Positions 39,364 to 62,986 of a DNA stretch of 64,000 bases are shown here, one piece after another. Position 1 is the stretch's first letter. Each line of letters starts with the position of its first letter. The position numbers were made by a program, and so were the translations under genes. This stretch comes from Ralstonia sp. A12 (GTDB lineage Bacteria > Pseudomonadota > Gammaproteobacteria > Burkholderiales > Burkholderiaceae). The stretch lies in NCBI RefSeq assembly GCF_000801955.1, contig NZ_JSZO01000002.1, positions 372,001 through 436,000 on the forward strand. Reading direction: 5' to 3'. The notes below the pieces were generated by a model. The model was not told the DNA's origin, ran no database searches, and saw nothing but the letters and a program-made list of their open reading frames with translations.

Positions 39364-39365
39364 GG

Positions 39366-39953: not shown

Positions 39954-41068
39954 GCGGCGCTCCTGGATGTGGAGGCAGATGCGGCGGCGGTAAATTGGTC
40001 GATCTGCTTGTCGCAGAGCGCACGCGCGTCTGCTGTCTTGTCATGCAGTTGGCGATACCAGGCGGCTGTGTGTTCCAGCGCGGTCTCGAACGGCCAGGCT
40101 GTTTGCCAGCCTAGTTGCTGGCGCGCCCGGCTGGCGTCGAGATGCAGCATGCCCGCCTCATGGCGGCCGGTGGTGGCATTGGCGTCCAGTTGCCAGATCA
40201 GATCCGGCCAGTGTTGTTGCAGACCTTGCAGCACCTGTTCAACCGTGCGCGTAGCGGCGCTGTCCGGGCCGAAATTCCAGGCCGTTGCGCAGGAGGCGTC
40301 ACCGGCCAGCAGGCGCTGCGCGAGCACCAGGTAGCCATGCAGGCAATCCAGCACGTGTTGCCACGGCCGCGTGGCGTGCGGCGAACGGATGACCAACGGT
40401 GTACCGGCACGCATCGCGCGCTCGGCATCGGGGATGAGCCGGTCTTCCGACCAGTCACCGCCGCCAATCACATTGCCAGCACGGCCAGTGGCCAACAGCG
40501 GGCCGTTGGCAAAGAACGCGCGCCGGTAGCTTGCGGCCACCAGTTCTGCGCACGCCTTGGAGGCGCTGTAGGGGTCATGGCCGCCGAGTGCATCGGTTTC
40601 GCGGTAGCCCCAGGCCCATTCGCGGTTGTCGTAGCACTTGTCGGTGGTGGCCACCACGATGGCCGACAGGTTCGTGCAGCCGCGCGCGGCTTCCAGCACG
40701 TTCACCGTGCCCATTACGTTGGTGGCGTAGGTGGCAGCGGGGTCCTTGTACGACGCGCGCACCAGCGGCTGTGCCGCGAGGTGAAAGACGACGTCGGGCT
40801 GTGCCGCAGTCATGGCTTCATGTACGCAACCCGGCAAGCCATCCGCATCACGGATATCGCCCAGCGTATGACCGGCCAACGCGGATTCCACGTTGGCAGA
40901 CGTGAAAAGATTCGGAGTCGTTTCCGGCGCCAGGCTGTAACCGTAGACTTGCGCGCCAAGTTGATGCAGCCACAGCGCCAGCCAGCTTCCCTTGAAGCCA
41001 GTATGCCCAGTCAGGAAGACGCGCTTGCCGGCCCAGGCGGCGGGATGGAGCGTCACCACTTTTTCCAC
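39950..41068 (-). CDS. rfbG: CDP-glucose 4,6-dehydratase
   Basis: A 372-residue extended short-chain dehydrogenase. [20 protein letters not shown] is the RfbG-type NAD motif; the catalytic YxxxK is in [27 protein letters not shown] is at the end. It converts CDP-glucose to CDP-4-keto-6-deoxy-glucose. The GTG at 41068 with GGGAG upstream was preferred; another GTG at 41089 is in frame. It overlaps rfbF by 16 nt, showing translational coupling. Confidence 0.9.
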
Positions 41069-41826
41069 GGAGCACTCCCCGATTGCCACAGGGCTTCCAG
41101 GCTGTTCTTGTCGCGCAGCGTGTCCATCGGCTGCCAGAAGCCGTGGTGCTCAAACGTATTCAGTTCGCCCATCTCGGCCAGGCGCGTCATCGGTGCGCCT
41201 TCCCAGGGGGTGTCTTCGCTTGCGATGTATTCGATCACGGACGGATTCAGCACGAAGAAGCCGCCGTTGATCCAGGTGCCGCCGTCGCCCGGCGGCTTTT
41301 CCGTGAAGCCGGTCACGCGCGTGCCGTCGCGCTGGAGCAAGCCGTAGCGCCCCGGTGGCTGCACGGCCGTCACCGTGGCCATCTTGCCGTGCGCGCGGTG
41401 GAAGGCGATCTTGCTGGTGATGTCGATGTCGGACACGCCGTCGCCGTAGGTGAAGCAGAACGGCTCGTTCGGGTCGAGGTAGGCTGCCACGCGCTTCAGG
41501 CGCCCGCCGGTCTGCGATTGCTCGCCGGTGTCGACCAGCGTGATGCGCCAGGGCTCGGCGTGGCGCTCGTGCACGGTCACTTCGTTCTTCGACATGTCGA
41601 ACGTCACGTCCGACATGTGCAGGAAGTAGTTGGCGAAGTATTCCTTGATGACGTAGCCCTTGTAACCCAGGCAGATGATGAAGTCGTTGATGCCGTGGGC
41701 GGCGTAGATCTTCATGATGTGCCACAGGATCGGACGGCCGCCAATCTCGATCATCGGTTTGGGCTTGAGGTGCGACTCCTCGCTGATGCGCGTGCCGAGG
41801 CCCCCGGCCAGGATGACTGTCTTCAT
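41053..41826 (-). CDS. rfbF: Glucose-1-phosphate cytidylyltransferase
   Basis: A 257-residue nucleotidyltransferase. Signature [20 protein letters not shown] and [20 protein letters not shown], then [14 protein letters not shown], and [20 protein letters not shown]. It makes CDP-glucose from CTP and glucose-1-phosphate, the first committed step of the CDP-sugar pathway encoded here. It is the first biosynthetic gene of the island, 14 nt after glycosyltransferase copy B. Confidence 0.92.
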
Positions 41827-41840
41827 GGTTCAGTGCTCGC

Positions 41841-42971
41841 TCATGCGGCGACCGGTGCGGCCGAAGCGGCGGTGCGTTCCTGCATCTGCCGCGCGAGGTT
41901 GGAAAAATGATTGGCCTTGATAGCCAGGGTGTCGGCTTGGGCGCGGTAGGTCAGCGCCAGGTACTTTGCGGCGGCAAAGCTGCCGCGCCCGAACACGGCG
42001 GCGTCCAGCTTGGGCTGCTCACCAATCTCCAGGCATTTCAGGAAGGCGGACTCCGCCATCGGCAGCCACTGTTTTTCGGCCTGCGCGGCGTCCTGGGCGG
42101 CGGCCTCAAACATCAGGTGGCCGAGCATGTAGAAGTAGTCGGGCGAGCCGGACCATTCCTCCATCCACTCGCCGGCCAGGGTGATGGCCGCATCCAGTTG
42201 CTTGGATTTGGACAGGCACGCCAGCAGGCAGATGCACAGGTCATGCCGATACGGCGCCGTCTTGGGCGCCGTTGTCAGCGCACGCTGGTAGTGCGCAGCG
42301 GCCTGGGCCGGGTCTTTCTGGTTGATCTCAAAGTCTTTGCCGAGCTGGTAGAGCACGTACGGATCATCCGGATGCGCGGCCAGCTCCAGTTGCAGCAGGG
42401 TGTGGTTGCGCCCGCGCTTCTGGTCCAGCTTGGCGTTCATGTAGCCGTCGTGGCCGATTACCAGCGGCAGGCGCACGCGCTGCAGGTTGGCCGCAGTGGG
42501 CGTACTGGCGACGGGCTGCTCGTGGATGCGGCCCTTGTAGCGCACGCCGCGCGGCAGCAGGCGGGCGATCCAGCTGTTGGAGTGCTCGACGTGGCCCGAG
42601 ATGTCGTATTCGCTGCGGATGCACACCACGCCCAGCAGCGGGCCGAAGGTGCACGCGTCGCGCAGCTCTGCGGTACCGCCTTCGATCCACTCGTCGGCGT
42701 CCAGCACAAGGTTCCAGTCGGCATTGGCGGCGGCCAGTGCGGCATTGCGGGCGGCCGAGAAGTCATCGACCCACGTGAAGTGGTGGACTTGCGCGCCGCA
42801 TGCCTGGGCAATCGCCACGGTGTCGTCGGTGGAGCCGGTGTCGAGCACGATCATGCGGTCGACATGCGGCTTGGCGCTCAGCAGGCAGCGCTCGATGCAG
42901 GCGGCCTCATTGCGGGCGATGACCACCAGCGCAATGTCGGATTTGGCGCGGTGCTTGGCGTGTTTGGACAT
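41841..42971 (-). CDS. GT2 glycosyltransferase with C-terminal TPR-like region (copy B)
   Basis: A 376-residue paralogue of 31541-32638. The start of the fold is the same (ALVVIARNEAACIERCLLSA KP); VLDTGSTDDT and LVLDADEWIEGG form the nucleotide and metal sites; a C-terminal helical-repeat region follows. It differs in the acceptor-side region (about 125-165) and has a longer basic N-terminus. The ATG at 42971 has GGGAG upstream; an in-frame start at 42992 is possible. It is 76 nt downstream of fliE copy B and may start the island operon. Confidence 0.83.
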   Translation of the reverse strand: MSKHAKHRAKSDIALVVIARNEAACIERCLLSAKPHVDRMIVLDTGSTDDTVAIAQACGAQVHHFTWVDDFSAARNAALAAANADWNLVLDADEWIEGGTAELRDACTFGPLLGVVCIRSEYDISGHVEHSNSWIARLLPRGVRYKGRIHEQPVASTPTAANLQRVRLPLVIGHDGYMNAKLDQKRGRNHTLLQLELAAHPDDPYVLYQLGKDFEINQKDPAQAAAHYQRALTTAPKTAPYRHDLCICLLACLSKSKQLDAAITLAGEWMEEWSGSPDYFYMLGHLMFEAAAQDAAQAEKQWLPMAESAFLKCLEIGEQPKLDAAVFGRGSFAAAKYLALTYRAQADTLAIKANHFSNLARQMQERTAASAAPVAA

Positions 42972-43047
42972 ACGGACTCCCGGACTCACCAACTGCAGCA
43001 GCAGCCAGTTGGCGCGGACAAAAAATAAAAACCCGGAGCGTGTGGCG

Positions 43048-43389
43048 TCAGATCGACATGCTCATGATGCTTTGGTACGCCGAGACGAACTTGTTACGCA
43101 CCTGCACGGCGGTCTGGAGGTCGATGTTGGCCTTCTGCAGAGAGAGCATCACGTCGTGCAGATCCACGTCGCTATTGCCCATTTCGAAACTGCGCGAGAC
43201 GGATTCGGCCTTTTGTTGCGATGCATCAACCCTATCCAGCGACGACTTGAGCACCGCACCGAAGTCGACACTGACTTTGGCGCCGTCGCCGTCTGCGCCA
43301 CTGGCGCCGCCAAGCCCGCTGACCTTGCCCGACGGTGCCAGCACGCTGTTCATCAGCGACACCACCGAGTTGGCGTTCGTAATATCCAT
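43048..43389 (-). CDS. fliE: FliE, rod/MS-ring adaptor, copy B
   Basis: A 113-residue FliE. It starts MDITNANSVVSLMNSVLAPS, has a Gly/Ala/Asp-rich linker about 4 residues longer than in copy A, and then an identical C-terminal 49 residues. It is divergent from fliF, the usual neighbour, with 272 nt between, so it is the likely ancestral copy. AGAGGA lies upstream. Because both copies are intact, the flagellum could be built with either or a mixture. Confidence 0.94.
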   Translation of the reverse strand: MDITNANSVVSLMNSVLAPSGKVSGLGGASGADGDGAKVSVDFGAVLKSSLDRVDASQQKAESVSRSFEMGNSDVDLHDVMLSLQKANIDLQTAVQVRNKFVSAYQSIMSMSI

Positions 43390-43562
43390 GTGAAGAGGAC
43401 TCCTCTTTTCTGTGCGTCTCTTGCGTGTGGCGCCGGCTGTTGGCCGGTTTCTGGCCGCTATGGCGCCACGGTGATGCAAAGGTAGCCGCCGGGCAGGCGT
43501 TCCCAAGCGCCCAAAAGAGCGGGAAAAGGCCCTCTTCTTGCCAATTTGCTTGTGCACCCCCT

Positions 43563-49306: not shown

Positions 49307-50920
49307 GTGGGTTTGAGTGCCACCCCCAATACTGCCGCGCAAGATCTGACCGGCATGCTGTCCGCCAGCAACAACGCTGCCGCAGACAAGTCGCAAAGCG
49401 CGTCGTCGTCCAACGGCGACACCTTCGGCAACCTGCTCTCGGATCGCCTGGCCCAGGATGCCGCGCGCCGTCGCGCCGATGCACAGTCTGCTGCTGACGA
49501 CGCGGCCAGCCGCCGTGCAGACGTCGCCCGCAAGGACGCCGCAAACGCCAACGCTGCGCGCAACAACCAGGACATCAAACCCGCTGCCACGGCCCTTGCG
49601 CAGACCGTGCCGGCAACCAGCACGCAGGACGCTGCCAGCACCAAGCCGGCGCAACCTGCCGATGCCAAGGACCTGGATGCGGCTGCGGCGCAGGCTGTCA
49701 TTGATCCGGCTGCCCAATTGGCCGCCCAGATCGAGGCTGCACGCCAGGCCGCTCAGCAGGCAGCTCAACAAGTTGCGCAGCAGACCGCCGGTGCATCGAC
49801 AGCAACGCTGCCGGCCACGCAGTCCGGCACGCAGTCGAATACAACGACCACTGTGGCGCAGAGCACGAGCAACTCGACTACGACCGATGCCGACGCCGCG
49901 ACGCTGGCCGCGCTGAACGCTGCGGCCAATGGTTCGCAAGGTGGTACCGATGCAGCCGCCGATGCGGCAGCATCCACGCCGGCCGCACAGGCCGCGCTGC
50001 AAGCCGCCAAGAGTGCCAAGACCGCAAGCACCGCTGCGAACGGCAACACGCCGACGCAGCCCGCCACGCCGCTGCCCGATGGCAATGCGCTCACCCAGAC
50101 CCTGGCGCGCACGCGTGCCGTGTCTGACAACACGCCGGCTGCCGTACGCCAGCTTGGCAGTGCCTCGTCAGCGCAGAACGCTAACGGCGAGCATGGCCTG
50201 CCGAAGCGCGCGGAATCGAGCACGCAGAGCAACATCTCGCAAACCGCCGCTGCAGCCGTGGCCGATGCCAACAGCCGCGCGAGCAATGGCGGCAATACCG
50301 GTGCACAGACTGATGCACAGGGCAGTGGTACGCAGTTCCAAGGTATCTTCGCGCGCGCCGAAGGCAATGCCATCGCTGCTGCACCGACCTTCGCCGTCGG
50401 CACAGCAGGTGCAGCGGGCAATGTTGCTGGCGCCACGATCACGCCCGCGCAGGTTCATACGCTCCCCACCTTCGGCGATGCCGCCTGGCCGCAAAGCATG
50501 GCCAGTCAGCTTGCCTTCATGCAGGTGCGCCGCCAGTCTTCTGCCGAGCTGCAGCTGAATCCTGCCGAACTGGGCGGCCTGCACGTCAAGCTGGATGTCG
50601 ACAACGGTGCCGTCAATGCCAGCTTTGTTTGCCAGCACCAGGCCGTGGCCGAACTCGTGCAGGATTCCATGCCGCGCTTGCGTGATGCCATGCAGCAAGG
50701 CGGTATGCAGCTTGCGCAAACGACCGTCAGCACGGGCGATTTCAGCCAGCAGCAGGGTGCCTGGCAGGGTGCATCGGCACAAGGCAACGGCTCGGGCAAT
50801 GGTGGCAGCGGCAGCCGCTTTGGGGGCAACGCGCAAGGCCGTGCCGATGCCACCAGCGCCGTGGCCGCTGCACCGCAGCGCGTTTCCAGCCACGACGGCG
50901 CCATCGATACCTTTGCGTGA
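49307..50920 (+). CDS. fliK: FliK, hook-length control protein
   Basis: A 537-residue protein. The long N-terminal region (1-390) is Ala/Thr/Gln/Asp-rich, the flexible ruler. The C-terminal Flg_hook domain is recognisable: QLAFMQVRRQSSAELQLNPA, ELGGLHVKLDVDNGAVNASF, and HQAVAELVQDSMPRLRDAM. A Gly/Ser-rich tail follows. It starts with GTG after GGAG. It switches export from hook to filament substrates via FlhB. Longer than the 405-residue enterobacterial protein. It is the last gene of fliFGHIJK. Confidence 0.93.
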   Translation: MGLSATPNTAAQDLTGMLSASNNAAADKSQSASSSNGDTFGNLLSDRLAQDAARRRADAQSAADDAASRRADVARKDAANANAARNNQDIKPAATALAQTVPATSTQDAASTKPAQPADAKDLDAAAAQAVIDPAAQLAAQIEAARQAAQQAAQQVAQQTAGASTATLPATQSGTQSNTTTTVAQSTSNSTTTDADAATLAALNAAANGSQGGTDAAADAAASTPAAQAALQAAKSAKTASTAANGNTPTQPATPLPDGNALTQTLARTRAVSDNTPAAVRQLGSASSAQNANGEHGLPKRAESSTQSNISQTAAAAVADANSRASNGGNTGAQTDAQGSGTQFQGIFARAEGNAIAAAPTFAVGTAGAAGNVAGATITPAQVHTLPTFGDAAWPQSMASQLAFMQVRRQSSAELQLNPAELGGLHVKLDVDNGAVNASFVCQHQAVAELVQDSMPRLRDAMQQGGMQLAQTTVSTGDFSQQQGAWQGASAQGNGSGNGGSGSRFGGNAQGRADATSAVAAAPQRVSSHDGAIDTFA

Positions 50921-50937
50921 CGGCTGGGGGCAATTCC

Positions 50938-50964
50938 TAAAGTTTTATTAAGACCGGCCGTTAC
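50938..50964 (+). promoter_or_regulatory. Sigma-28 promoter downstream of fliK
   Basis: TAAAGTTT (50938-50945, 8 of 8), an 11-nt spacer, and GCCGTTAC (50957-50964, 6 of 8). It starts 17 nt after the fliK stop codon and points into a 300-nt stretch without a gene, ending at a terminator. Confidence 0.75.
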
Positions 50965-50970
50965 TCCTCA

Positions 50971-51246
50971 CGAGTGCCATATCAATGGCCAGCCGTAAGG
51001 CGACGAAAGTAGAGAAGGACGGGAAATAACAACGCGAATGCCCCAGCAGCGACGGTGGCTTTGCGATGAATAACAAGGGGGTCAAGTCCGACCGGCGAAG
51101 ACGGGATCAAACGGGGATCACTTCGCCACATCCACCTTCGGGTGGATGCCACGGACCGATGCGGCGTGTCCGAGCCGGGGGGCTGGCGCACCGCATGTTT
51201 GCCGTACTTACGGGAGAGCGCACCGCGAGGTGCGCTTTTTGTTTTT
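50971..51246 (+). ncRNA. Candidate FliA-dependent small RNA
   Basis: A stretch of about 275 nt bounded by a sigma-28-type promoter (50938-50964) and an intrinsic terminator (51217-51246), with no convincing gene. It contains strong local structure: a 7-bp stem pairing 51095-51101 with 51122-51128, an 8-bp hairpin with a UUCG loop at 51130-51149, and the terminator hairpin with a GCGA loop. A 14-codon frame (50985-51029, MASRKATKVEKDGK) could be translated, so a dual-function RNA is possible. Expected to be made only when FliA is active. The terminator lies 20 nt from the 3' end of the convergent DedA-rhodanese gene. Function unknown. Confidence 0.55.
51217..51246 (+). terminator. Intrinsic terminator of the candidate small RNA
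   Basis: A perfect 8-bp stem (AGCGCACC with GGTGCGCT), a GCGA tetraloop, and TTTTTGTTTTT. The T run is on the plus strand only, so it serves rightward transcription from the fliK side. Confidence 0.85.
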
Positions 51247-51269
51247 GTGGCGGCCGAAAAGACGCGGGC

Positions 51270-52247
51270 TCAGGCGCGCGCTTCGGCCGCAGTCAGCGTG
51301 TCTGGCGATACCGAGACCACGTGTTCCACGCCATAGCCGCGCTCCACCCACGCATCGATACCGCCGTGCAGCGGCCGCACGCGCTTGAAGCCGCGGCCCA
51401 TCAGCGTGCGTGCCACCACCACCGCAGACGCCTCGTTCGGGCAGGCGCAGTAGATGATGATCTCGCGGTCGGGGCCGTCGATCTCGATGGCGTTGTGCTG
51501 GCTCGACATGTCGTACAGCATCGCACCCGGAATGCGCTGTGGCTGCGACATCCGCGAGCTGTCGCTGCGCACGTCGATGATCACCGGGGCTGAACCTGAT
51601 TCGATCAGCGCGTGCAGCTCGTCAGGCGAGATGCGCACCATCTCCAGCATCTTGCGAAAACGCCAGCGTTGCAGCCAGCGGCCGGCCACGTAGAGCGCCG
51701 CTAGCACGACGATCAGCACGACGGCCTGCGTGCCGAGCTTGTCGAGCAGCCGCAGCGCCTGGTCGATGCTGTCATGCGCCATGCGCCCGAACAGCAGCCA
51801 GATTGCCGCCCAGAGCGCCGAGCCGGCCAGGTTGTACAACACGAACACGCTGAACGGCGTGCGCATCGTGCCCAACAGTGCTGAAGACACGGTCGACAGC
51901 CCCGGCACAAACTTCGAGATCAGCAGCAGCGGCGCACCCCAGCGCTCGAACTGTGTGCGCGTGCGCCGCACGCAGGAATCGGGCGACAGCGAAACGCGGC
52001 ACAGGAGCGCCATCACGTGCCGGCCGTAGCGCTTGCCGGCGAAGTACCACAGGGCATCGCCGATCAGGGCGCCGGTGATCGCGGCCGGCAGCAACTCCAT
52101 GAAGTGCAGCGGGCCGATCGTGGTGAGTGCTCCCCCCACCAACAGCGTTGGCACGGCGGGCAGCGGCGCGCCGGCCTGCGTGAGCAGCACGTTCAGGAAC
52201 ACGGCAAATGCACCGTATTCGGCAAGGAGGGGGAACAGGTCGTGCAT
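51270..52247 (-). CDS. DedA-family membrane protein fused to a rhodanese domain
   Basis: A 325-residue protein. Residues 1-200 are a DedA/SNARE-associated family membrane domain (ALIGDALWYFAGKRYGRHVM, RWGAPLLLISKFVPGLSTV, SSALLGTMRTPFSVFVLYNL). Residues about 215-315 are a rhodanese: LIESGSAPVIIDVRSDSSRM, then the Cys-containing loop IIIYCACPNEASA. The active Cys is kept but the loop is short, so sulfur transfer is uncertain. DedA proteins act in lipid scrambling, envelope integrity and proton-linked processes. The ATG at 52247 has no good ribosome site. Gene converges with the small RNA. Confidence 0.85.
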   Translation of the reverse strand: MHDLFPLLAEYGAFAVFLNVLLTQAGAPLPAVPTLLVGGALTTIGPLHFMELLPAAITGALIGDALWYFAGKRYGRHVMALLCRVSLSPDSCVRRTRTQFERWGAPLLLISKFVPGLSTVSSALLGTMRTPFSVFVLYNLAGSALWAAIWLLFGRMAHDSIDQALRLLDKLGTQAVVLIVVLAALYVAGRWLQRWRFRKMLEMVRISPDELHALIESGSAPVIIDVRSDSSRMSQPQRIPGAMLYDMSSQHNAIEIDGPDREIIIYCACPNEASAVVVARTLMGRGFKRVRPLHGGIDAWVERGYGVEHVVSVSPDTLTAAEARA

Positions 52248-52402
52248 AGGAGGAAAACGGGAGGCGCGGCGTAGCAAATGCGTTTGCCAAGTTACCGCAT
52301 TCCGGCGTCGTCCGATAGGCATACCTGTATGGACTGTTAGGCGACGTGTCCGCCACGTGAAATTGGCATGACAATGATGCTTTCGCGCACGCATTTGTCG
52401 CC

Positions 52403-52951
52403 ATGTCCTCTGCATTGCCCACGAACGCTTCTGCCGTTGTCTCCGGCGCTGACGCCGTCAGCATCCGCCCAGCCACGCCGGCTGACTTACCGGTCATCGT
52501 CACCATCTATACGCAGCACGTGCTGTTCGGCTCGGCCAGCTTCGAGATCGACCCGCCCGACCTGACAGAGATGACGCGCCGCTTCCAGGCGCTGCAGGAC
52601 GTTGGCATGCCCTATATCGTTGCCGAGGCCGCTGGAAAACTGCTCGGCTATGCCTACGCTGGCCCGCACCGCGCGCGGCCCGCGTATCGCAATACGGTGG
52701 AAGACTCGATCTACCTGGATGCGGCTGCGCAAGGGCGGGGCGTTGGTACGTTGCTGCTGCAGGCGCTCATTGCGCAATGCCAGGCACGCGGGTTCAAGCA
52801 GATGGTGGCCGTGGTGGGCGGTGGGTATGAGAACCCGGGGTCTGCCAAGCTGCACGCGCGCTGCGGGTTCCGCGAGGTGGGCGTGCTGGAGAAGGTGGGC
52901 TACAAGTTCGGGCGCTGGCTGGATTGCTTGCTCATGCAGCGCGCGTTGTAA
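52403..52951 (+). CDS. GNAT acetyltransferase, phosphinothricin acetyltransferase-like
   Basis: A 182-residue GNAT enzyme of the PAT/Bar-like group: SIRPATPADLPVIVTIYTQH, SFEIDPPDLTEMTRRFQALQ, YAYAGPHRARPAYRNTVEDS, the acetyl-CoA loop AAAQGRGVGTLLLQALI, and NPGSAKLHARCGFREVGVLE. Related enzymes N-acetylate methionine sulfoximine, phosphinothricin or simple amino acids. It stands alone, rightward, before the phage-derived locus, and may mark the chromosomal edge of that locus. Confidence 0.87.
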   Translation: MSSALPTNASAVVSGADAVSIRPATPADLPVIVTIYTQHVLFGSASFEIDPPDLTEMTRRFQALQDVGMPYIVAEAAGKLLGYAYAGPHRARPAYRNTVEDSIYLDAAAQGRGVGTLLLQALIAQCQARGFKQMVAVVGGGYENPGSAKLHARCGFREVGVLEKVGYKFGRWLDCLLMQRAL

Positions 52952-53078
52952 GGCGGGTTGGGCGGCGCGCTGCGTGGCGCGGCAGTCAAGCCCCATGCGT
53001 TGCGGGTCGTGCGAAGAATGCGGATCAGTGCTTCGTTCATTCAGTTCAGAAACGTGTGTTGTGTGTGAGTCAGGGCGC

Positions 53079-53803: not shown

Positions 53804-54583
53804 TCAGAAATCGCCCATGCCCGACCGGTATTTGACCCGGCCAACGATGTCGATGTGCTCGAGCTGCTCAGGAGCAACCATGAACGGATCGTGTTTCTCC
53901 TTGTTGTCGCTGACCACGCGGATCGATCCGTCGGGCAGGCGGAACAGGCGCTTGACCAGCATCTCGCCACAGTAGACCAGGGCAAACACGCCGCCCCCGG
54001 TGGGGATGCGGCGGTCGGCCTTGTCGACTACGACCGTGTCGTCGTCAAACAGGCGCGGCTCCATGCTGTCGCCGCGCACCTTGACTGCCACCAGGTTCTT
54101 GGGGCTCGCATCCAGCCGGCGGATGTAGTCGGCCTGGAACGGCAGCGGCTCTTTCTCTTCAACGTGCCAGGTCTCACGGCCGTTGCCGGCGGACAGTGTC
54201 ACATCCACATGTGTGATCAGGATGGTCGACTCCGTTGGCAGTTCATCCAGGCTGTCATACGTGGTGATGGGGCGGGCAGGAAAGCCCTTGCTGTGCGCCG
54301 ATACGGGGGCGCCATCATCCACGCCGCCCACGGCGTCTGCGGCCGCCTCGGAGAACGGCGCGTCCATCGTGCGGTCTGGAAATCCCAGCTTCTTCTCCAG
54401 CCGGCGCGCAGCGATATCACCAATGCTGCGGCCGTCCTGATAGGTGCGCGACAGGAACTGGGCCACCTGTGAACGCGAGTACCCGTACTGGCGCTCGAAC
54501 TCGGCGCGATCGCCATTGACGAGGGTTTGGATCCAGTGGGCAAGCCACTGGCGGCGGTTGTCGTAGATGTCCATGGGGCGCAT
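53804..54583 (-). CDS. S24-type phage repressor
   Basis: A 259-residue repressor with a HTH-like N-terminus (RQWLAHWIQTLVNGDRAEFE, YGYSRSQVAQFLSR) and a C-terminal LexA/CI-type S24 domain. The self-cleavage Ser is in VRGDSMEPRLFDDD (Ser173) and the Lys in CGEMLVKRLFR (Lys211). This implies inactivation through RecA during DNA damage, as in lambda CI. The start is at 54583 or an in-frame ATG at 54574; neither has a clear ribosome site. It is divergent from the early genes. Confidence 0.88.
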   Translation of the reverse strand: MRPMDIYDNRRQWLAHWIQTLVNGDRAEFERQYGYSRSQVAQFLSRTYQDGRSIGDIAARRLEKKLGFPDRTMDAPFSEAAADAVGGVDDGAPVSAHSKGFPARPITTYDSLDELPTESTILITHVDVTLSAGNGRETWHVEEKEPLPFQADYIRRLDASPKNLVAVKVRGDSMEPRLFDDDTVVVDKADRRIPTGGGVFALVYCGEMLVKRLFRLPDGSIRVVSDNKEKHDPFMVAPEQLEHIDIVGRVKYRSGMGDF

Positions 54584-54621
54584 TAGAGCAAGAAATTTCT
54601 AATCCGTGGGTTAGAAGTGTC

Positions 54622-54655
54622 TTGACATCGTAGTTTAGAATAATCTAAATTACAA
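54622..54655. promoter_or_regulatory. Divergent repressor/early promoters with operator
   Basis: Rightward: TTGACA (54622-54627), an 18-nt spacer, TAAATT (54646-54651). Leftward: TTGTAA (54655-54650), a 17-nt spacer, TACGAT (54632-54627). Both overlap the palindrome TTTAGA-ATAA-TCTAAA (54634-54649). More TTAGA/TCTAA half sites flank it (54584-54614). This is the layout of a phage immunity switch in which one repressor controls both directions. Confidence 0.7.
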
Positions 54656-54752
54656 CCCATCGACCCGCCTCCAACCCGCTTCCTGGGCTGCCGGGCCGAA
54701 CCGAATCTCGTTCAATCCGCGCAGCGATGTGCGCCGACAGGAGCCTCTTCCC

Positions 54753-55040
54753 ATGACCGTCACCGAAACTTCAATGGATGCCTTTCGACGTGGCCGTACG
54801 ACGTCGACCGCCAAGCTGCAGTGCGATCGCATTGCCGACTACGTGGCCCGCGCCGGCACCGCCACGATTGCTGAGATTGCGCTGGCGCTGCGCATTGAGA
54901 AGTCCAGCGTCTCTGCCCGCCGCAGCGAGCTGATCGCGGCCAAGCGGCTGGAACTGGCCGAGGAGCGCAAGTGCAGCGCCACGGGCCGCTGGGTGCAATC
55001 CGTGCGCGTGGCGCCCGTGCAAGTGCGCCTGTTTCAGTAG
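54753..55040 (+). CDS. Small winged-helix-like phage protein (95 aa)
   Basis: A 95-residue basic protein. Residues 25-80 look like a winged helix: DRIADYVARAGTATIAEIAL, then RIEKSSVSARRSELIAAKRL as the recognition region. AGGA precedes the ATG at 54753. It is the first rightward gene after the immunity region, so it is an early regulator candidate (Cro-like in position, not in sequence). The family is unrecognised. Confidence 0.65.
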   Translation: MTVTETSMDAFRRGRTTSTAKLQCDRIADYVARAGTATIAEIALALRIEKSSVSARRSELIAAKRLELAEERKCSATGRWVQSVRVAPVQVRLFQ

Positions 55041-55177
55041 GCGCGCGTCACGTCCTTGCGTCGCTGGCAGTGAGCACAGCGACAGCCAGGGCACGACGTT
55101 CAACGATATCTACCGCTGTGATGGGCGCTGCCATCTCACGGCAATCAACAAGCACTGAACCAACGAGGAAATGGGAT

Positions 55178-55603
55178 ATGGGAATTGAAGACCGTCTGGA
55201 CAACTGGGGCCGCGTGGTGCGTGACCCGAGCTGGCAACCGCAGTACTGCGCATCGTGGGCACGCCTGGCGGTTGCCATGCGCGATGCCGATAGTGGCGCC
55301 CCACAAGCCATCGTCACCATCGACGTGAATGATGGCTGGCTGGTGGAGCGCGCGTGGCAGAAGATTGCCGACCCGGTTGCGAAGCGTCTGCTGCAGTATC
55401 ACTACGTGCATCGCATGCCTGCGGAGATGGTGTGCCGCATCCTCGTGCGCAAGTACGGCGCATCGCCGCACACGCTCAAGCACTGGAAGGTGCGTCTTGC
55501 GAAGGCGCAGTCGATCATGTCGCACGTCATTGATTCAGAGGTTGCACGCGTGCAGATGATGAAGGCCGTGCGCGCCGCTGCGGCAGTGCCGATGGTTGCC
55601 TGA
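55178..55603 (+). CDS. Q-like antitermination protein candidate
   Basis: A 141-residue protein similar in layout to phage antiterminator Q (PF06530-like): RLDNWGRVVRDPSWQP at the start, a middle core DPVAKRLLQYHYVHRMPAEM, then VCRILVRKYGASPHTLKHWK with an HTH appearance and a C-terminal helix. GAGGA lies 8 nt before the ATG. Similar proteins are encoded just before the late promoter in lambdoid phages, as here. ArpU-like sigma-region proteins are the alternative. The call is inferred from pattern and position. Confidence 0.55.
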   Translation: MGIEDRLDNWGRVVRDPSWQPQYCASWARLAVAMRDADSGAPQAIVTIDVNDGWLVERAWQKIADPVAKRLLQYHYVHRMPAEMVCRILVRKYGASPHTLKHWKVRLAKAQSIMSHVIDSEVARVQMMKAVRAAAAVPMVA

Positions 55604-55623
55604 AAATTTTTTTCGCAGACCCC

Positions 55624-55652
55624 TTGCACGGTTTATATCCCCTTCGTATTCT
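55624..55652 (+). promoter_or_regulatory. Candidate late promoter of the tail module
   Basis: TTGCAC (55624-55629), a 17-nt spacer, TATTCT (55647-55652). The match is weak at -35. Position after the Q-like gene and before terminator-like hairpins is what supports it. Confidence 0.35.
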
Positions 55653-55762
55653 GTTTCCCAGATGTTCGATTGCCCTCGCGGCGTAACCGGTTCAGACCGA
55701 GACATGCACCCCACTGGGGTGCATTGACTTACCCAGACGAAGCGAAGATGCGCTGAAGAAAT

Positions 55763-55786
55763 GCCCGCCACTGAGCGGGCTTTTTT
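55763..55786 (+). terminator. Terminator-like hairpin in the late leader
   Basis: A 6-bp stem (GCCCGC with GCGGGC), a 6-nt loop and six T. It lies upstream of the first tail gene, in the tR' position of a lambda-type late leader. Confidence 0.65.
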
Positions 55787-55930
55787 GTTTCTCCGCGTCG
55801 CTTACGTACATGCAACACCTGCCTCGATGTCACTGCACGGTGACGACCTGATCGAGGTGATCTCACTTCTTGATGCAACTCACTCGATCGATCGCGCCTC
55901 GCCGCGCGCATTGATGAAGGCGCTTGTCTT

Positions 55931-56767
55931 ATGGCAGACCTCTCTGATGTTTCCAACGCACTCGTCGCGCTCGTCACGGGTGTGGTCTATCCGAACGGCA
56001 CCAGCCAACCGTCGATCACGGGCAACCCCGTACTGGTGTATAGCGGCTGGCCCAACATGACGCAGTTGAAGACAGACCTGCAGGCCAACAAGGCGCACGT
56101 GTCGGTCTTCCCGACCAAGAGCCACCAGCGGCACAAGAGCACGGCGTTCTCTGACTGGACGGTGTCTGCACCGCCGGCCAACACGCTGGCACTGAGCCTG
56201 GCCGGGCAGACCGTCATGGTGAACGGCACCGTCAGCATGCCGCAGAACGTCGTGTTGCTCGTGGATGGGCGCGTGTATGTCTACGCCGTGCAGGCCAGCG
56301 ATACACCCGCGAGCATTGCAACGGCGGTTGCCGCACTGGTGGCGGTAGACCAGCCGGCGAGCGCGACGGGCGCGTCGATCACGATTCCGGGCGCGACCTA
56401 CATCTCGCCGCGTGTAGGGGGGATCGGCACTGTGCAGCGCGAGACGCGCCGGCAGGAGCGCACGTTCCTCATCTCCACATGGGCGAATGGCGCTGCGCCG
56501 CGCGACCTCATCACTGGCAAGGTCGATGCGGTGCTGTCGGGCCTCGTGCGCCTGACGCTGCCCGACCAGGGGGCCGCGCTGCGCTACAAGCTTGGGCTGC
56601 AGCACGATGACTCGACCAACCTGATCTACCGGCGGGACCTGCGCTATGCCGTTGAGTACGCGACCATCGTGACCGAAACGGCCTACCAGATCGCCACCGG
56701 TGTGGAGAACGTGACGGCCGGTGCGTCGATGGGCGCGCAGTTTCCCGTCCGCACGCTGGTGGAGTAA
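55931..56767 (+). CDS. Mu gp37-like tail protein
   Basis: A 278-residue protein directly before the sheath gene. It starts MADLSDVSNALVALVTGVVY, has GNPVLVYSGWPNMTQLKTDL, VSVFPTKSHQRHKSTAFSDW, and a late RRDLRYAVEYATIVTETAYQ. The order before sheath and tube matches Mu gp37, so it may be a tail-completion or terminator component. In that position Mu-like tailocins carry a similar gene. I do not recognise a named domain with certainty. Confidence 0.55.
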   Translation: MADLSDVSNALVALVTGVVYPNGTSQPSITGNPVLVYSGWPNMTQLKTDLQANKAHVSVFPTKSHQRHKSTAFSDWTVSAPPANTLALSLAGQTVMVNGTVSMPQNVVLLVDGRVYVYAVQASDTPASIATAVAALVAVDQPASATGASITIPGATYISPRVGGIGTVQRETRRQERTFLISTWANGAAPRDLITGKVDAVLSGLVRLTLPDQGAALRYKLGLQHDDSTNLIYRRDLRYAVEYATIVTETAYQIATGVENVTAGASMGAQFPVRTLVE

Positions 56768-56818
56768 GTGATGGGCTGAACAGCCCAGCGTATTTGCAGT
56801 AGCAGTTCACCAACCCGT

Positions 56819-56840
56819 GCCGCCCTCTGGGCGGCTTTTT
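56819..56840 (+). terminator. Terminator-like hairpin before the sheath gene (1)
   Basis: A 7-bp stem (GCCGCCC with GGGCGGC), a 3-nt loop and five T, followed within 10 nt by a second such hairpin. The preceding sequence GCAGTTCACCAACC recurs before the hub-gene hairpin. Confidence 0.65.
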
Positions 56841-56848
56841 CATGTGTG

Positions 56849-56871
56849 GCCGCCTTCGCGCGGCTTTTTTT
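56849..56871 (+). terminator. Terminator-like hairpin before the sheath gene (2)
   Basis: A stem GCCGC with GCGGC, a 6-nt loop and seven T, 20 nt upstream of the sheath start codon. Confidence 0.6.
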
Positions 56872-56890
56872 GTTTTCCTTGGAGGCAAGC

Positions 56891-58423
56891 ATGCCGATCG
56901 TTCAGCAGGGCAGCATCAATACCACTGCTCTCATCGTTCCGGACCTGTACGTCCAGATTGTTCCGCCGCAGGTCACCCTGCTCAATGGTGTGCCGACCAA
57001 CGTGCTCGGCGTGGTCGGTACCGCCACGTGGGGCCCAGTCAACTCGCCGACCATCATCGGCAACATGGCCATGTATGCCCAGGCATTCGGCGCGATCCAG
57101 AATCGCACGTATGACATGGGCACCGCCGTGGCCGTGGCTGTCCAGCAAGGCGCCAACAACTTCCGCTGCGTGCGCGTGACCGACGGCACCGACACCGCGG
57201 CCACCGTGATCGCACAGACCAACGGCATCACGTTCACCGCCAAGTACACGGGTTCGCTGGGCAACACCGTCACGGTGGCGCTGTCTGCAGGCTCTGCAGC
57301 CAACACGTGGAAGGTGACCGTGGCCGCGCCCGCATTGGCACCGGAAGTGTTCGACAACATTGGCGCGGGCCAGACCGGCAATGCGCTGTGGGTGGCCATC
57401 GCCAACGCCATCAACAACGGCGTGAGCGTCATGCGCGGCGCCTCGCAGATCATCACCGCTAGCGCAGGCGCCGGCACGACCGCACCGACGGCTGCCACGC
57501 TCACCCTGACGGGCGGCACCGACGGTGCGGCCACCATCAACGGTGCCGTGCTGCTCGGCCAGGACGCTGTGCCGCGCAAGGGCATGTATGCGCTGCGCAA
57601 CCAGGGCGTGTCGATCGCCATGCTGGCCGACTGCGCTGATGCCACCACGTGGCCGACGCAGGTTGCCTTCGGTCTGTCGGAAGGCATCTACATGATCGGC
57701 GTGAGCCCGAGCGGCGACACCATCGCCAACGCCGTGACCGCCAAGAGCACCGGCGGCATCGATTCGTATGCCTTCAAGCTGCTCTTCGGCGACTGGGTGT
57801 ACTGGCTCGATACCGTGAACGGCGTGACGCGCCTGGTCTCGCCGCAAGGTTTCGTGGCGGGTCTGCTGGCCAACCTGTCGCCGCAGAACAGCAGCCTGAA
57901 CAAGCAGATCTATGGTGTGGTCGGCACGCAGAAGACGTTTGCCAACCAGAGCTACAGCTCGGCCGAACTGCAGACGCTGATCCAGGCCGGCATTGATGTG
58001 GTCACCAACCCGGTGCCGGGCGGTGCCTACTTCGGTTGCCGCGCGGGTCACAACACCAGCTCGAACGCGCTCACGCAGGGTGACAACTACACGCGCATGA
58101 CCAACTACATCGCCAGCACCATCAATGCGGGCATGGGCAAGTACGTTGGCCAGTTGCAGTCGGCCACGGTGCGCGCGCAGGCCGCGGCCACGTTGTCGAA
58201 CTTCCTGAGCTCGATGGAGCAGCAGGGCATGATCGGCGCGGTCAACGGCGGTCCGGCGTACTCGGTACAGATCGATGCGAACAACAACCCGATGAACCGC
58301 GTCGCGCTGGGCTACATGCAGGCCGACGTGAAGGTGGTCTACCTGTCGGTTATCGAGAAGTTCCTGGTGAACGTGGAAGGCTCGCAAGCCACCGTGATCC
58401 GGACCTCGACCAACAACCAGTAA
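56891..58423 (+). CDS. Contractile tail sheath protein
   Basis: A 510-residue sheath subunit of the Mu gpL / P2 FI superfamily. It starts MPIVQQGSINTTALIVPDLY, has GVPTNVLGVVGTATWGPVNS and GTAVAVAVQQGANNFRCVRV in the N-terminal domain, and a C-terminal domain around NPMNRVALGYMQADVKVVYL with the end strand LVNVEGSQATVIRTS. Polymerises around the tube and contracts to drive it through the target envelope. GGAGG before the ATG at 56891. Identity as sheath is the best-supported call of the locus. Confidence 0.88.
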   Translation: MPIVQQGSINTTALIVPDLYVQIVPPQVTLLNGVPTNVLGVVGTATWGPVNSPTIIGNMAMYAQAFGAIQNRTYDMGTAVAVAVQQGANNFRCVRVTDGTDTAATVIAQTNGITFTAKYTGSLGNTVTVALSAGSAANTWKVTVAAPALAPEVFDNIGAGQTGNALWVAIANAINNGVSVMRGASQIITASAGAGTTAPTAATLTLTGGTDGAATINGAVLLGQDAVPRKGMYALRNQGVSIAMLADCADATTWPTQVAFGLSEGIYMIGVSPSGDTIANAVTAKSTGGIDSYAFKLLFGDWVYWLDTVNGVTRLVSPQGFVAGLLANLSPQNSSLNKQIYGVVGTQKTFANQSYSSAELQTLIQAGIDVVTNPVPGGAYFGCRAGHNTSSNALTQGDNYTRMTNYIASTINAGMGKYVGQLQSATVRAQAAATLSNFLSSMEQQGMIGAVNGGPAYSVQIDANNNPMNRVALGYMQADVKVVYLSVIEKFLVNVEGSQATVIRTSTNNQ

Positions 58424-58446
58424 CACGCTACTCAATCAACCCTTCG

Positions 58447-58475
58447 GCTCCGCAATGCGCGGGGCTTTTTTTTTT
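58447..58475 (+). terminator. Terminator-like hairpin between sheath and tube genes
   Basis: A 7-bp stem (GCTCCGC with GCGGGGC, one G-U pair), a 5-nt loop and ten T, ending 10 nt before the tube start codon. Confidence 0.7.
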
Positions 58476-58485
58476 GGAGAACACT

Positions 58486-58917
58486 ATGCCGATTCAAGGC
58501 TATACCGTCGGCCGCGACTACGCGCTGGTCATCCAGACTGCAGGCGGCACGCTGCAACCGAGCAAGATCACCGCTTTCAAGAGCAAGCAGGATGTGACCG
58601 ACGTGCGCGTCAAGCGCCTGGACGGCATCACCGACCACGTGCGCTTCTTCGATGGCTGGTCGGGTTCGTTTGACGTGGAGCGCCAGGATGCCACGCTCGA
58701 CAACTATTTCGCGCAACTCGAAGCGGGCTACTACGCCGGCTTCAACGAGCTGGGCGCGCAGATCTACGAAACGATCCAGGAAGCCAACGGCTCGGTCTCG
58801 CAGTTCCGCTACGACGGGGTGATGATGACGCTGGCTGACGCCGGCAACCGCGCGGGCGACGCCACTATCAAGCAATCCGTCAACTTCGTGGCCTCGCGCC
58901 GCGTCAAGGTGTCCTGA
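58486..58917 (+). CDS. Contractile tail tube protein
   Basis: A 143-residue tube subunit in Mu gpM position: MPIQGYTVGRDYALVIQTAG, then ITAFKSKQDVTDVRVKRLDG, HVRFFDGWSGSFDVERQDAT and SQFRYDGVMMTLADAGNRAG. Forms the inner tube that sheath contraction drives forward. GGAG precedes the ATG. The stop overlaps the next start by 1 nt (TGATG). Confidence 0.82.
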   Translation: MPIQGYTVGRDYALVIQTAGGTLQPSKITAFKSKQDVTDVRVKRLDGITDHVRFFDGWSGSFDVERQDATLDNYFAQLEAGYYAGFNELGAQIYETIQEANGSVSQFRYDGVMMTLADAGNRAGDATIKQSVNFVASRRVKVS

Positions 58918-59276
58918 TGACCAACGTGACCATCACTCCCTCTGAACAGATCATCAAGGCCGCCGCGAAAGAGGTGGTGGTTGATGACGCGCTCGGCCGC
59001 AAGATCACGCTGCGCAAGCCAAGTCCGCTGGGCAACCTGGACTTTGCGAAGGCCGCCGGCAGCAGCGAACTCAACATGCTGTATCTGGCGGAGGTGGCGC
59101 ACCTCAAGTTCGTCTCGGCCATCGATGGCGAACCGGTGCTCACGCCTTCCACTGAGGCACAACTGCGTGCCCTGTATCAGCGCTTGGGCGAAGAGGGTAA
59201 CGAAGCCGCGCAGCGCGGCGTGGCGGCCAGCTTCATCCAGACGGCCGAGCCGGAGTCCGAGCTAAAAAACTCCTGA
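58917..59276 (+). CDS. Tail assembly chaperone, zero-frame product
   Basis: A 119-residue protein in the position of Mu gp41: TNVTITPSEQIIKAAAKEVV, then RKITLRKPSPLGNLDFAKAA and LNMLYLAEVAHLKFVSAIDG. It binds the tape-measure protein to organise tail assembly. Its stop lies 4 nt after the slippery site A-AAA-AAC (59264-59270), allowing a -1 shifted longer form ending at 59443. Overlaps the tube gene by 1 nt. Confidence 0.82.
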   Translation: MTNVTITPSEQIIKAAAKEVVVDDALGRKITLRKPSPLGNLDFAKAAGSSELNMLYLAEVAHLKFVSAIDGEPVLTPSTEAQLRALYQRLGEEGNEAAQRGVAASFIQTAEPESELKNS

Positions 59277-59443
59277 CGAACGGCCCGTTTCACGAGGCAA
59301 TGTGGCTCGTGCATAACGGTGTGCCGTTCGACGTGGCGTTTTCTCTGGACGACACCATGCGCCAGGCGATGGCCATCAAATGCAGCGAATTTCATGGCGC
59401 GGAGTTTGACTTGAAGACGATGTCTTTCAAGGAGCGCGAATGA
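59264..59443 (+). CDS. Tail assembly chaperone, -1 frameshift extension
   Basis: From the slippery heptamer A-AAA-AAC in zero-frame register at 59264-59270, a -1 shift moves reading into a frame that is open to the TGA at 59441-59443, adding 57 codons (LLTNGPFHEAMWLVHNGVPF and so on) to give about 175 residues. This matches the programmed shift of Mu gp41 and P2 E/E' chaperones: the extension has no start codon of its own and sits right before the tape-measure region. Frequency of shifting is unknown. Confidence 0.75.
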   Translation, partial: KKLLTNGPFHEAMWLVHNGVPFDVAFSLDDTMRQAMAIKCSEFHGAEFDLKTMSFKERE

Positions 59444-59550
59444 ATCTTTCGCTTGCGGAGATGGTGCATCGCTTGGGCGGGCTGGTGGCTGCCATCGGCA
59501 CCACCCCCAGCCAAGCGGTCGTCCTGGGATTGGGCACTGGCGCGCGCTGA
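59440..59550 (+). CDS. Small tail-region ORF, frame possibly disrupted
   Basis: A 36-codon frame (MNLSLAEMVHRLGGLVAAIG, ending GLGTGAR) whose ATG overlaps the frameshift-product stop as ATGA. A second frame, one base ahead, is open from 59444 to 59626 and has coding-like composition in its second half (SSWDWALARADGVQKRVGDA). The two frames could be joined by a +1 shift at the CCCCC run (59504-59508), giving about 61 residues. So this is a real small gene, a sequencing or natural frameshift, or a second recoding site. Family unrecognised. Confidence 0.35.
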   Translation: MNLSLAEMVHRLGGLVAAIGTTPSQAVVLGLGTGAR

Positions 59551-59660
59551 CGGCGTGCAGAAGAGGGTGGGCGATGCGGTGGCGGCGGCGCTGGCGGGCC
59601 GCCCTATCGCACACGCCCACACGTGAGATCGGTGGCCTCAACAGATGAACAAGGATTCCT

Positions 59661-61994
59661 ATGAGCCTCGATGCTTACAAGATCGGGATACGGATTGCGC
59701 TGGTGGATAGCGCCTCGCGCGGGTTGATGGAGATCGCCACGCGGCTCGAGGCAATCGACAAGAACGCAGAGAAAGTCGAGACCCGACTACAGAAGATCAA
59801 GAAGCTGGCCGATACCGGCGATGCCCTGGCCAAGGCTGGCAAAGAAACTGCCTTGATGTGGAAGGACGAACTGGATGCGGCGTCGAAGTATCACACCGTG
59901 CTTGAGCGCATCAGCTTGCTTCAGCCCGGTTCGCTTGCAGCCAATGACAGGTTCATCAAGAGCCTGGAGGTCAAGGGCCAGTCCTATACCGACCTTGCCA
60001 GCCTCTATGGTGGCGCGCAGACCATTCTGCAGGATTCAACCCAGGCGCAGCAGGTTACCGAGATGCTGGCGCAGATGAAATCGGGGCTGATGGCCGCAAC
60101 GGGCTCGAAGGATGGGGCGAAGTTTGAGGAACTGGTGCTCTCTGCGTTGAAGGTGGCGCAGATGCGTGACGGGGTGATCGACCCCAACACCGGCAAGATC
60201 GACACGCAGAAAGTGCGAGAGACGCTGGATGCGGTAACGAATAGCTACCTGGTCAGCAACGGCAAGGTCGAGCCGAAGGACTACCAGGAGGCGGTGCAGT
60301 CCGGCAAGCTCTCGACGAAGTTCACACAAACCGAGGCCGCATTCTTCGGGCTGAAGCAGTTCATGCAGAGCGCGGGTGCTTCCAACACCAGCGTCGCCGC
60401 GATGACCACGCTCCAGGGCTGGACCTCGGGGAAGATGTCGCCGACCGCGGTGCGTGAGCTGGAGCGGGTCAAGCTGCTGGACCACAAGGCCGTGCATCGT
60501 GACAAGTCCGGTCACATTGTCGGCGTGGACGCGACTGGCATGGCGCGTTCGCAAGAGTTTGCGGCCAACCCGTTCAAGTATGTGGCCGACGTGATTGTGC
60601 CCGCGCTGCAGAAGCAGGGGTACACGGGGGATCGTCTCAACACGAAGCTGGAAGCCATTCTGGGGGCGAAAGACGCCAGCCTCGCGAACGTGCTGCTTCA
60701 CGAGCAGGACCGTGCCGGCAAGTACCTTCAGAACCGCAGTCAGGCGGGTGGCGTTTCCCAGACCTATGAAAAGGCAAACGAGGGACATGACGCCAAGTTG
60801 AAGGACTATGAAGCCAAGGTCACCAATCTGAAGATCACGCTCGGCGAGAATATCTTGCCGTTGGCGATTGCCGGCTTGGAGAAGTTCAGTCACCTTATCG
60901 AGAAAATCACGAAGCTTGCGCAGGAGCATCCTGAGGTAGCGAAGGGGGTCATGCTCGCAGTCACGGGATTGACGCTCTTCAAGAAGCTGTTGCCAGTATT
61001 GGTGCCTCCTGCGGGCGGTGGTGGCTCGGGCAAGGGCTCACCGTGCGATTGCCTGAAGCTGGGTGAGTCGATCGCGCGCAAGCCGCTTCGCAAGCTGGGC
61101 GGGGCGCTCGGCTCGCGCGTGAAGCGGATGAGTAAAGCGGGGATGTCGGCACTCCGCAAGGGGGCGGAGTGGGGCAGGAGATTGGTCCGCAACGTGGCGA
61201 ACCGTGGTCGCTCGCTCGCAAATGGGGTGCGATCGGTGGGGCGCCGCGCAGGCACCATGGCGAAGTCGCTGGGGAAAAGTACGGTGTCAGCGCTCCGTAC
61301 CGGTGCAGGCTGGGGCAGGACGCTGGTTCGCAACATGGCCAGCAGAGGCCGTTCGCTTGCAACAGGGGTGCGGTTGGTTGGGCGCAATGCCGGCACGATG
61401 GTGAAGGCGCTGGGGGCAACCGGCGTGTCGGTGCTTCGCAAGGGCGCTGGCTTGGGGCGGGGGCTCTTGAGTACCGCGGGGGCTTTGGCCAAGTCGCCGT
61501 TGAAAGGCGTACTGGGCGCTGTGGGCGCCCTGGTCAAGTCACCCGTGGCGCGTACAGCGTTACGGTTTGCCGGACCGGTTGGTTTGGCGGTCAACGCGAT
61601 CGACACAGCTTGGCAAGTCGGCAAGACCGCCTATCAGGTCGGCAGTTGGGCAAACACCAACCTCATCAACCCGCTGGCGGAGCGTATGAGCGGTGTCAAA
61701 GGTGCAACGCTCGGCACCTATCTGTACGACCTGCTGCACCCGGGTGAAGGCAAGAAGCTCACGAGTCCTCCCACCACACCCTACTCGAACGAAGGTCACA
61801 ACCGCAGCCCGGTGGTCGGCAGCTCCGTCAAGATCGCAGATCAGAAGCCCGTCATCCTCAAGGGTGACGTGACGATGGACGGCCGCTCGGTCGGGCAAGT
61901 GGTGTGGAAGCAGATCAACGGCAACCTCGCACGGCCGCAAACCGGTTCCAGCAGTTTCAACACCGGCATGCAACTGATGCCTTCTGGACTTTGA
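59661..61994 (+). CDS. Tail tape-measure protein
   Basis: A 777-residue tape-measure protein: MSLDAYKIGIRIALVDSASR, a long N-terminal helical region, a middle hydrophobic segment (residues about 425-450), and a basic repeat region (495-610) of 47-residue units. The C-terminal part has helices PVARTALRFAGPVGLAVNAI and a tail. It fixes tube length; 777 residues at about 0.15 nm each would predict a tail of roughly 115 nm (estimate only). AAGGA precedes the ATG. Follows the chaperone in Mu order. Confidence 0.82.
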   Translation: MSLDAYKIGIRIALVDSASRGLMEIATRLEAIDKNAEKVETRLQKIKKLADTGDALAKAGKETALMWKDELDAASKYHTVLERISLLQPGSLAANDRFIKSLEVKGQSYTDLASLYGGAQTILQDSTQAQQVTEMLAQMKSGLMAATGSKDGAKFEELVLSALKVAQMRDGVIDPNTGKIDTQKVRETLDAVTNSYLVSNGKVEPKDYQEAVQSGKLSTKFTQTEAAFFGLKQFMQSAGASNTSVAAMTTLQGWTSGKMSPTAVRELERVKLLDHKAVHRDKSGHIVGVDATGMARSQEFAANPFKYVADVIVPALQKQGYTGDRLNTKLEAILGAKDASLANVLLHEQDRAGKYLQNRSQAGGVSQTYEKANEGHDAKLKDYEAKVTNLKITLGENILPLAIAGLEKFSHLIEKITKLAQEHPEVAKGVMLAVTGLTLFKKLLPVLVPPAGGGGSGKGSPCDCLKLGESIARKPLRKLGGALGSRVKRMSKAGMSALRKGAEWGRRLVRNVANRGRSLANGVRSVGRRAGTMAKSLGKSTVSALRTGAGWGRTLVRNMASRGRSLATGVRLVGRNAGTMVKALGATGVSVLRKGAGLGRGLLSTAGALAKSPLKGVLGAVGALVKSPVARTALRFAGPVGLAVNAIDTAWQVGKTAYQVGSWANTNLINPLAERMSGVKGATLGTYLYDLLHPGEGKKLTSPPTTPYSNEGHNRSPVVGSSVKIADQKPVILKGDVTMDGRSVGQVVWKQINGNLARPQTGSSSFNTGMQLMPSGL
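61143..61490 (+). repeat. Tandem 47-codon repeats within the tape-measure gene
   Basis: Two full units and a partial third: residues 495-541 (MSALRKGAEWGRRLVRN...), 542-588 (VSALRTGAGWGRTLVRN...), and from 589 (VSVLRKGAGLGRGLLS...). Each is Arg/Gly-rich and the period is exactly 141 bases. DNA identity between units is clear but imperfect, suggesting old duplication. Confidence 0.8.
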
Positions 61995-62000
61995 CCAACC

Positions 62001-62963: not shown

Positions 62964-62986
62964 CTCCGCAGTTTCACCAACTGGAC

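Follow-up and report, generated by a model that had tools for sequence, protein, structure and literature searches.

The window, as we call the whole stretch of 64,000 nucleotides that was analysed, contains a flagellar gene cluster. Its flagellar genes were named from sequence and gene order, except FliK, FliJ and the FliI-type ATPase, which were confirmed by Pfam. The feature of interest lies directly behind fliK (Table 1). A first-pass annotation had placed a sigma-28 -35 element, with 11-nt spacing to a -10 element, 17 nt past the fliK stop, and we found the promoter there as claimed. That annotation also held that the promoter points at no gene, and indeed no plausible gene on the + strand was seen ahead of the terminator; the next gene is convergent. 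The strong rightward terminator said to close the stretch was recovered as well.

Table 1. Positions of fliK, the sigma-28 promoter, the predicted RNA with its parts, and the convergent gene (window coordinates).
Feature	Position	Strand	Remarks
fliK	49307..50920	+	Pfam Flg_hook, E 1.4e-19
Sigma-28 -35 element TAAAGTTT	50938..50945	+	TAAAG[GT]T[TC] kept in 16/16 genus genomes
Sigma-28 -10 element GCCGTTAC	50957..50964	+	GCCGT and spacing 11 kept in 16/16 genus genomes
Predicted non-coding RNA	50972..51246	+	Start inferred from promoter; end is the terminator
Helix 1, GCCA/TGGC	50976..50989	+	One compensatory change
Long-range helix (predicted), 5' strand AAGGACGGGAAAT	51015..51027	+	Partner 51197-51209; 11 pairs
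Nearly invariant core with terminator	51070..51246	+	154/179 alignment columns invariant
Small hairpin GGTC-AAGTCC-GACC	51080..51093	+	Consensus structure
Hairpin GGCGAAG...CTTCGCC, large loop with invariant GGGATCAAACGGGGATCA	51094..51127	+	Consensus structure
UUCG-capped hairpin	51129..51148	+	Compensatory changes at two pairs
Long imperfect hairpin, 15 pairs	51159..51196	+	No pair varies across 16 genomes
Long-range helix (predicted), 3' strand GTTTGCCGTACTT	51197..51209	+	Partner 51015-51027
Intrinsic terminator	51213..51246	+	Stem 51213-51240, 4-nt loop, T-tracts up to 51246
Convergent gene, VTT and rhodanese domains	51270..52415	-	Domain matches; outside the promoter's service

Two other parts of the window deserve mention. 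The flagellar cluster adjoins a block with repressor-like and phage tail-like genes that runs from 53804 to 64000 and on, past the window, to about 71600; one of its genes (56846–58423) appeared by eye to encode a tail sheath-like protein. Because the listed genes of this block had matches in only one of six relatives, it appears to be a prophage or an island encoding a tail-like particle. Between fliD and fliF (31541–43557), several genes resembled glycosyltransferase or sugar-modification genes by eye, which suggests flagellin glycosylation.

The -10 consensus of sigma-28 in E. coli is GCCGATAA, and the element behind fliK, GCCGTTAC, matches it at 6 of 8 letters. The pattern TAAAGTTTN{10,12}GCCGWWA had two occurrences in the window and no occurrence in 100 shuffles, and three window sites carried at least 14 of the 16 consensus letters, compared with a mean of 0.05 in 20 Markov-1 sequences. 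At a threshold of at least 13 letters there were five sites, namely the promoter of the predicted RNA and those before flgM, flgK, flgL and fliC. The first-pass annotation had seen the same pattern before flgM, flgK, fliC and fliD; the first three stand and flgL joins them, but the window scan found no site of at least 13 letters upstream of fliD. The promoter lay directly upstream of the RNA interval in all 16 genus genomes, with a spacing of 11 in every one. Mean identity among these genomes was 89% for the 16 promoter letters and 54% for the 11 letters of the spacer. Because the promoter letters and their spacing stayed constant while the spacer letters diverged, the promoter appears to be under selection. 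We concluded from these comparisons that the sigma-28 promoter behind fliK is a real site, beyond a chance match. By this promoter the predicted RNA belongs with the sigma-28-dependent regulatory RNAs, and it would be transcribed by FliA.

The RNA interval occurred once in the source genome and was present in all 16 genus genomes searched, where its length varied from 275 to 291 nt. The terminator, with its U-tract, was kept in all 16, and we counted it as real because of this conservation; a terminator scan, taken alone, stood at shuffle level (two terminator-like sites versus 2.7 from shuffles). No terminator-like site was seen between the fliK stop and the promoter in a scan of 49500–53000, so that fliK mRNA may read into the RNA.

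Core and terminator together (177–179 nt) showed a mean pairwise identity of 96.5% across the 16 genomes. RNase P RNA reached 97.3% in the same 16 genomes and 6S RNA 98.2% in 15 of them (one gave no match). Identity was 84% over the final 600 nt of fliK, 76% in the 5' part of the RNA, and 57% in the 100 nt beyond the terminator. On these figures the RNA itself looks to be under selection. Core distances followed fliK distances closely (Mantel r = 0.85, a value unmatched in 2000 permutations), consistent with vertical inheritance at the locus and not with recent spread; the correlation with RNase P RNA distances was non-significant (r = 0.28, p = 0.095). The first-pass annotation had named a lack of promoter and hairpins in related species as a finding that would refute it, and within the genus the RNA passed this test: promoter, spacing, core and terminator were found in all 16 genomes, so that the comparison establishes conservation of promoter, core, terminator and position. 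Its proposal to look for the RNA in Cupriavidus had a different outcome. At the one named locus examined, in C. metallidurans, a hairpin and other genes lie behind the fliK-like gene, and the RNA model gave no match there.

Folding energies favoured a structured RNA. The energy of the RNA at 50972–51246 was equalled by 1 of 200 shuffles (z = −3.5), and the 16 homologues had a mean z of −3.1 (range −4.1 to −1.8). Without the terminator the mean z of the homologues was −1.8 (range −2.6 to −0.6), mildly better than shuffles. A consensus structure of 76 pairs in 11 helices had 99.2% of its pair cells paired and four pairs with a double change; none of 500 shuffles reached its percentage paired, its number of double changes or its covariation score, where structure and covariation test derive from the same alignment. 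Further pair types were unexceptional (83 of 500 shuffles), and a slide control in which the 3' partners were moved by +3 columns gave three pairs with a double change versus four in the structure. Because the core hardly varies, covariation leaves most pairs without a test.

The hairpins claimed between promoter and terminator were predicted here too, including one with a UUCG loop at 51137–51140, but that loop sequence is kept in only 5 of the 16 genomes, the others having CUCG (7), CUUG (3) or CACG (1) when counted by eye. In the hairpin at 51094–51127 the innermost pair was G-U in 12 genomes and G-C in 4. Two loci (L002 and L003, in genomes G005 and G013) carry 13 extra nt in the small second hairpin, an insertion that resembles a tandem copy of nearby letters. 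The predicted long-range helix would enclose the core in a single multi-branched domain; its cells were 98.9% paired, with no double change, and the lowest-energy fold of the window's own RNA gave these strands other pairing. Invariant columns made up 77 of 87 paired and 50 of 58 unpaired core positions. Since paired and unpaired columns are about equally invariant, the core sequence itself seems to matter, beyond its stems.

The RNA was also sought in databases and in more distant genomes. Rfam 15 gave no match in the window at the gathering cut-off, and a relaxed search gave a single match (E 4.7; 9.6 bits versus a cut-off of 38); no riboswitch family of Rfam matched the RNA. A DNA search of 45 genomes of other genera was also negative. 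When the RNA model was run on 299 genomes of the family, 18 had a match, comprising the 16 genus members and two weak cases (28.1 and 26.6 bits) that proved to be terminator-bearing gene ends, at the 3' end of an rplS-like gene. Among 300 genomes of the order, the model matched its own genome and one weak site (25.8 bits) at which a malate dehydrogenase-like gene ends, with terminator stem letters identical to those of the RNA. A second weak match in G014 (22.7 bits) was likewise located where a gene ends, at a hairpin followed by a T-run. In the family and order runs the top nine first-look candidates were scored per genome, so weak relatives may escape. On 28 further loci (26 fliK loci, the C. 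metallidurans stretch and L143), the model matched only L143, once more, and an 8.1-bit fragment in L071. Taken together, the 45, 299 and 300 genomes of other genera, family and order gave no convincing copy of the RNA outside the genus. A 20-letter piece of the core, searched against genome contigs, was found in 11 stretches, nine of Ralstonia and two labelled 'Burkholderiaceae bacterium' that are probably genus genomes. Plasmid and phage records and viral contigs gave no match to the RNA; in a plasmid control with flagellar genes, none of the 25 records listed among 214 matching ones was of Ralstonia. Among the papers listed from the open-licence PMC literature, titles and the beginnings of abstracts held no apparent description of it.

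We consider it somewhat better than an even bet that the interval encodes a FliA-timed, structured non-coding RNA that acts in trans and probably involves Hfq or ProQ. FliA (sigma-28) would start the RNA just 3' of fliK, and the RNA would then be present while the late flagellar genes are expressed; fliK mRNA, too, probably has this sequence as its 3' end, and some copies may come from there. The transcript, of about 275–290 nt, would end at the strong intrinsic terminator and fold into several hairpins, with a nearly invariant core of ~145 nt plus the terminator. It would most likely act in trans, bound by Hfq or ProQ, tuning mRNAs while the filament is built; the fliA, hfq and proQ genes were all found in the source genome. 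This reading is favoured by the single copy, by a core identity near that of RNase P RNA and by the constant promoter spacing. Against it stand flagellar pairing at chance level, a fold that, without the terminator, is mildly above shuffles, a pattern of constraint unlike a short seed, the non-significant correlation of core with RNase P RNA distances, and sense and antisense reading frames that are open over the core in most genomes.

Target prediction against flagellar mRNAs, a check proposed in the first-pass annotation, yielded nothing above chance. We compared the RNA by gapless pairing with the starts of 61 flagellar-region genes, in 5–7 genomes each, and none was significant. The best candidate was flgH (named from sequence and gene order; start 12037), where CCCCCCGG just inside the gene would pair with CCGGGGGG in the 51159–51196 hairpin. 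All of the 7 genomes compared kept this pairing, but scores equally good came from 39 of 160 shuffled RNAs. Averaged over the top five targets, the score was also at chance level (79 of 160 shuffles), and RNase P RNA itself scored −9.67 versus −9.60 for the best target of the RNA.

In a simple pairing sRNA, constraint is expected in a short seed. The evenly spread constraint observed here makes binding of a protein or ligand likelier than for a usual sRNA, and it is possible, though less likely than not, that a FliA-timed structured RNA acts through a bound protein or small ligand, as part of an RNP, a decoy or a sponge, and not by base pairing. Constraint on the core is about that on RNase P RNA and affects loops as much as stems, the 15 pairs of the 51159–51196 hairpin never vary, and the failure of any flagellar pairing target to reach significance points the same way. 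The lack of an Rfam family match speaks against such a mode of action, and the target prediction behind it covered 61 genes with gapless pairing.

A quite different account would see in the interval only a long 3' UTR of fliK mRNA, with a relic of a fliL promoter and an RNA without function of its own. Its appeal comes from other genera. Of 30 loci listed, 26 were non-Ralstonia fliK loci, and 25 remained after L048, whose contig ends 51 nt past fliK, was left out. A sigma-28-like site lay between fliK and a fliL-like gene in 7 of these 25 listed loci, with 11–14 of the 16 letters, and it was found in all listed loci of the genera concerned (g17, 3 of 3; g11, 2 of 2; g18, 2 of 2); the remaining 18 had at most 10 of 16 letters in a strict scan. 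The seven loci (L047, L049, L054, L050, L062, L051 and L052) thus represent three other Burkholderiaceae genera. A 12-letter site that a looser scan gave in L068 (g12) was rejected, as it lies inside a convergent reading frame and not upstream of fliL. In the window, the gene recognized by eye as fliL begins at 24097 on the opposite strand, and its best upstream sigma-28 site has 10 of 16 letters. Because a sigma-28-like site precedes fliL in those seven listed loci while fliL is elsewhere in Ralstonia, the promoter may have been left behind. In a relic, however, the promoter letters and their spacing would not stay fixed across 16 of 16 genomes beside a drifting spacer, nor would the core remain at 96.5% identity, and we regard a functionless UTR as improbable. 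The simplest story would be that fliL moved away, that its promoter stayed, and that an RNA gene behind the promoter was kept. Joined to binding of a protein or ligand, this history would give a genus-specific RNA of late flagellar assembly, nearly as fixed as RNase P RNA and controlled by FliA from a promoter that stayed behind as the fliL operon moved, a combined proposal that we put forward tentatively.

That the interval encodes a small protein is similarly improbable. Three frames could be considered: the possible 14-residue peptide of the first-pass annotation, a sense frame from 51066, and an antisense frame over the core. The 14-codon frame (50985–51029) exists in the window, but in relatives it has other lengths or lies in other frames, and its ATG is lost in L005, so the peptide is not conserved among the 16 genomes. 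The longer frames fare better at first sight, since in 14 of 16 genomes the sense frame shows no shift across the core, its ATG is present in 14 of 16, and 14 of 16 have the antisense frame uninterrupted over most of the core. In the window genome (G000) and in G001, however, both are shifted. Moreover, followed from its phase at the start of the core, the sense frame stays open to the end of the terminator tail in 14 of 16 genomes and meets a stop inside the terminator in G005 and G013; the antisense frame would need its start codon within the terminator. Because they enter or begin in the terminator, we hold both frames to be by-products of a GC-rich conserved RNA. No reading frame of the interval is intact across all 16 genomes, no ribosome-binding site was seen in it by eye, and it is probably not a protein gene, although the two longer frames make the case less clear-cut.

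Titration of CsrA by a CsrB/RsmZ-like RNA is very improbable: some GGA motifs fall in predicted loops and ANGGA reached 4 versus 1.8 expected in G001 (P = 0.10), but in the five genomes tested, out of 16, GGA counts matched chance expectation (7 versus 7.2 expected in G000; lowest P = 0.27), and no match to CsrA (PF02599) was found in the RNA's own genome, which is 99.98% complete. The missing CsrA match is noteworthy in a genome that carries a flagellar cluster.

The favoured trans-acting, FliA-timed RNA has several relatives in kind, likened here through published descriptions. In E. coli, the sigma-28-dependent sRNAs UhpU, MotR, FliX and FlgO are described as UTR-derived and conserved among some Enterobacteriaceae (PMC10578931). 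The Ralstonia RNA would share with them sigma-28 control, a tie to a flagellar gene and a possible origin at a flagellar mRNA 3' end; it differs from these UTR-derived RNAs in having a promoter of its own behind a gene and a constrained stretch of ~178 nt. Campylobacter jejuni has the FliA-dependent CJnc170 (FlmR) and the RpoN-dependent CJnc230 (FlmE) (PMC11187230). The Ralstonia RNA would resemble FlmR as a FliA-dependent transcript of its own and FlmE in its place behind a flagellar structural gene; it is set apart from them by the demonstrated targets of FlmE and the demonstrated effect of FlmR on flagella (PMC11187230). Bdellovibrio has merRNA and further attack-phase sRNAs, three of which are listed with a FliA promoter; they are described as long motile-phase RNAs with no gene behind them and not found outside their lineage (PMC3627812), as the Ralstonia RNA would be. 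merRNA, however, carries a c-di-GMP riboswitch, with no FliA promoter marked in the table of that study (PMC3627812), while the Ralstonia RNA matches no riboswitch family. The sRNA S17, part of which is conserved across Betaproteobacteria, lies in Bordetella between a glycosyltransferase gene and coq7, and is set apart from the Ralstonia RNA by this location (PMC11722255).

Sigma-28-dependent RNAs have thus been described, in the accounts cited here, from E. coli, Campylobacter and Bdellovibrio, and the Ralstonia RNA would be a case from the Betaproteobacteria. Its locus suggests a route by which an RNA gene may be born, when a flagellar promoter stays in place as its operon leaves. With a promoter of its own and a core as conserved as a housekeeping RNA, it is open to simple deletion, which could show whether flagellar assembly in this group includes a layer of RNA control.
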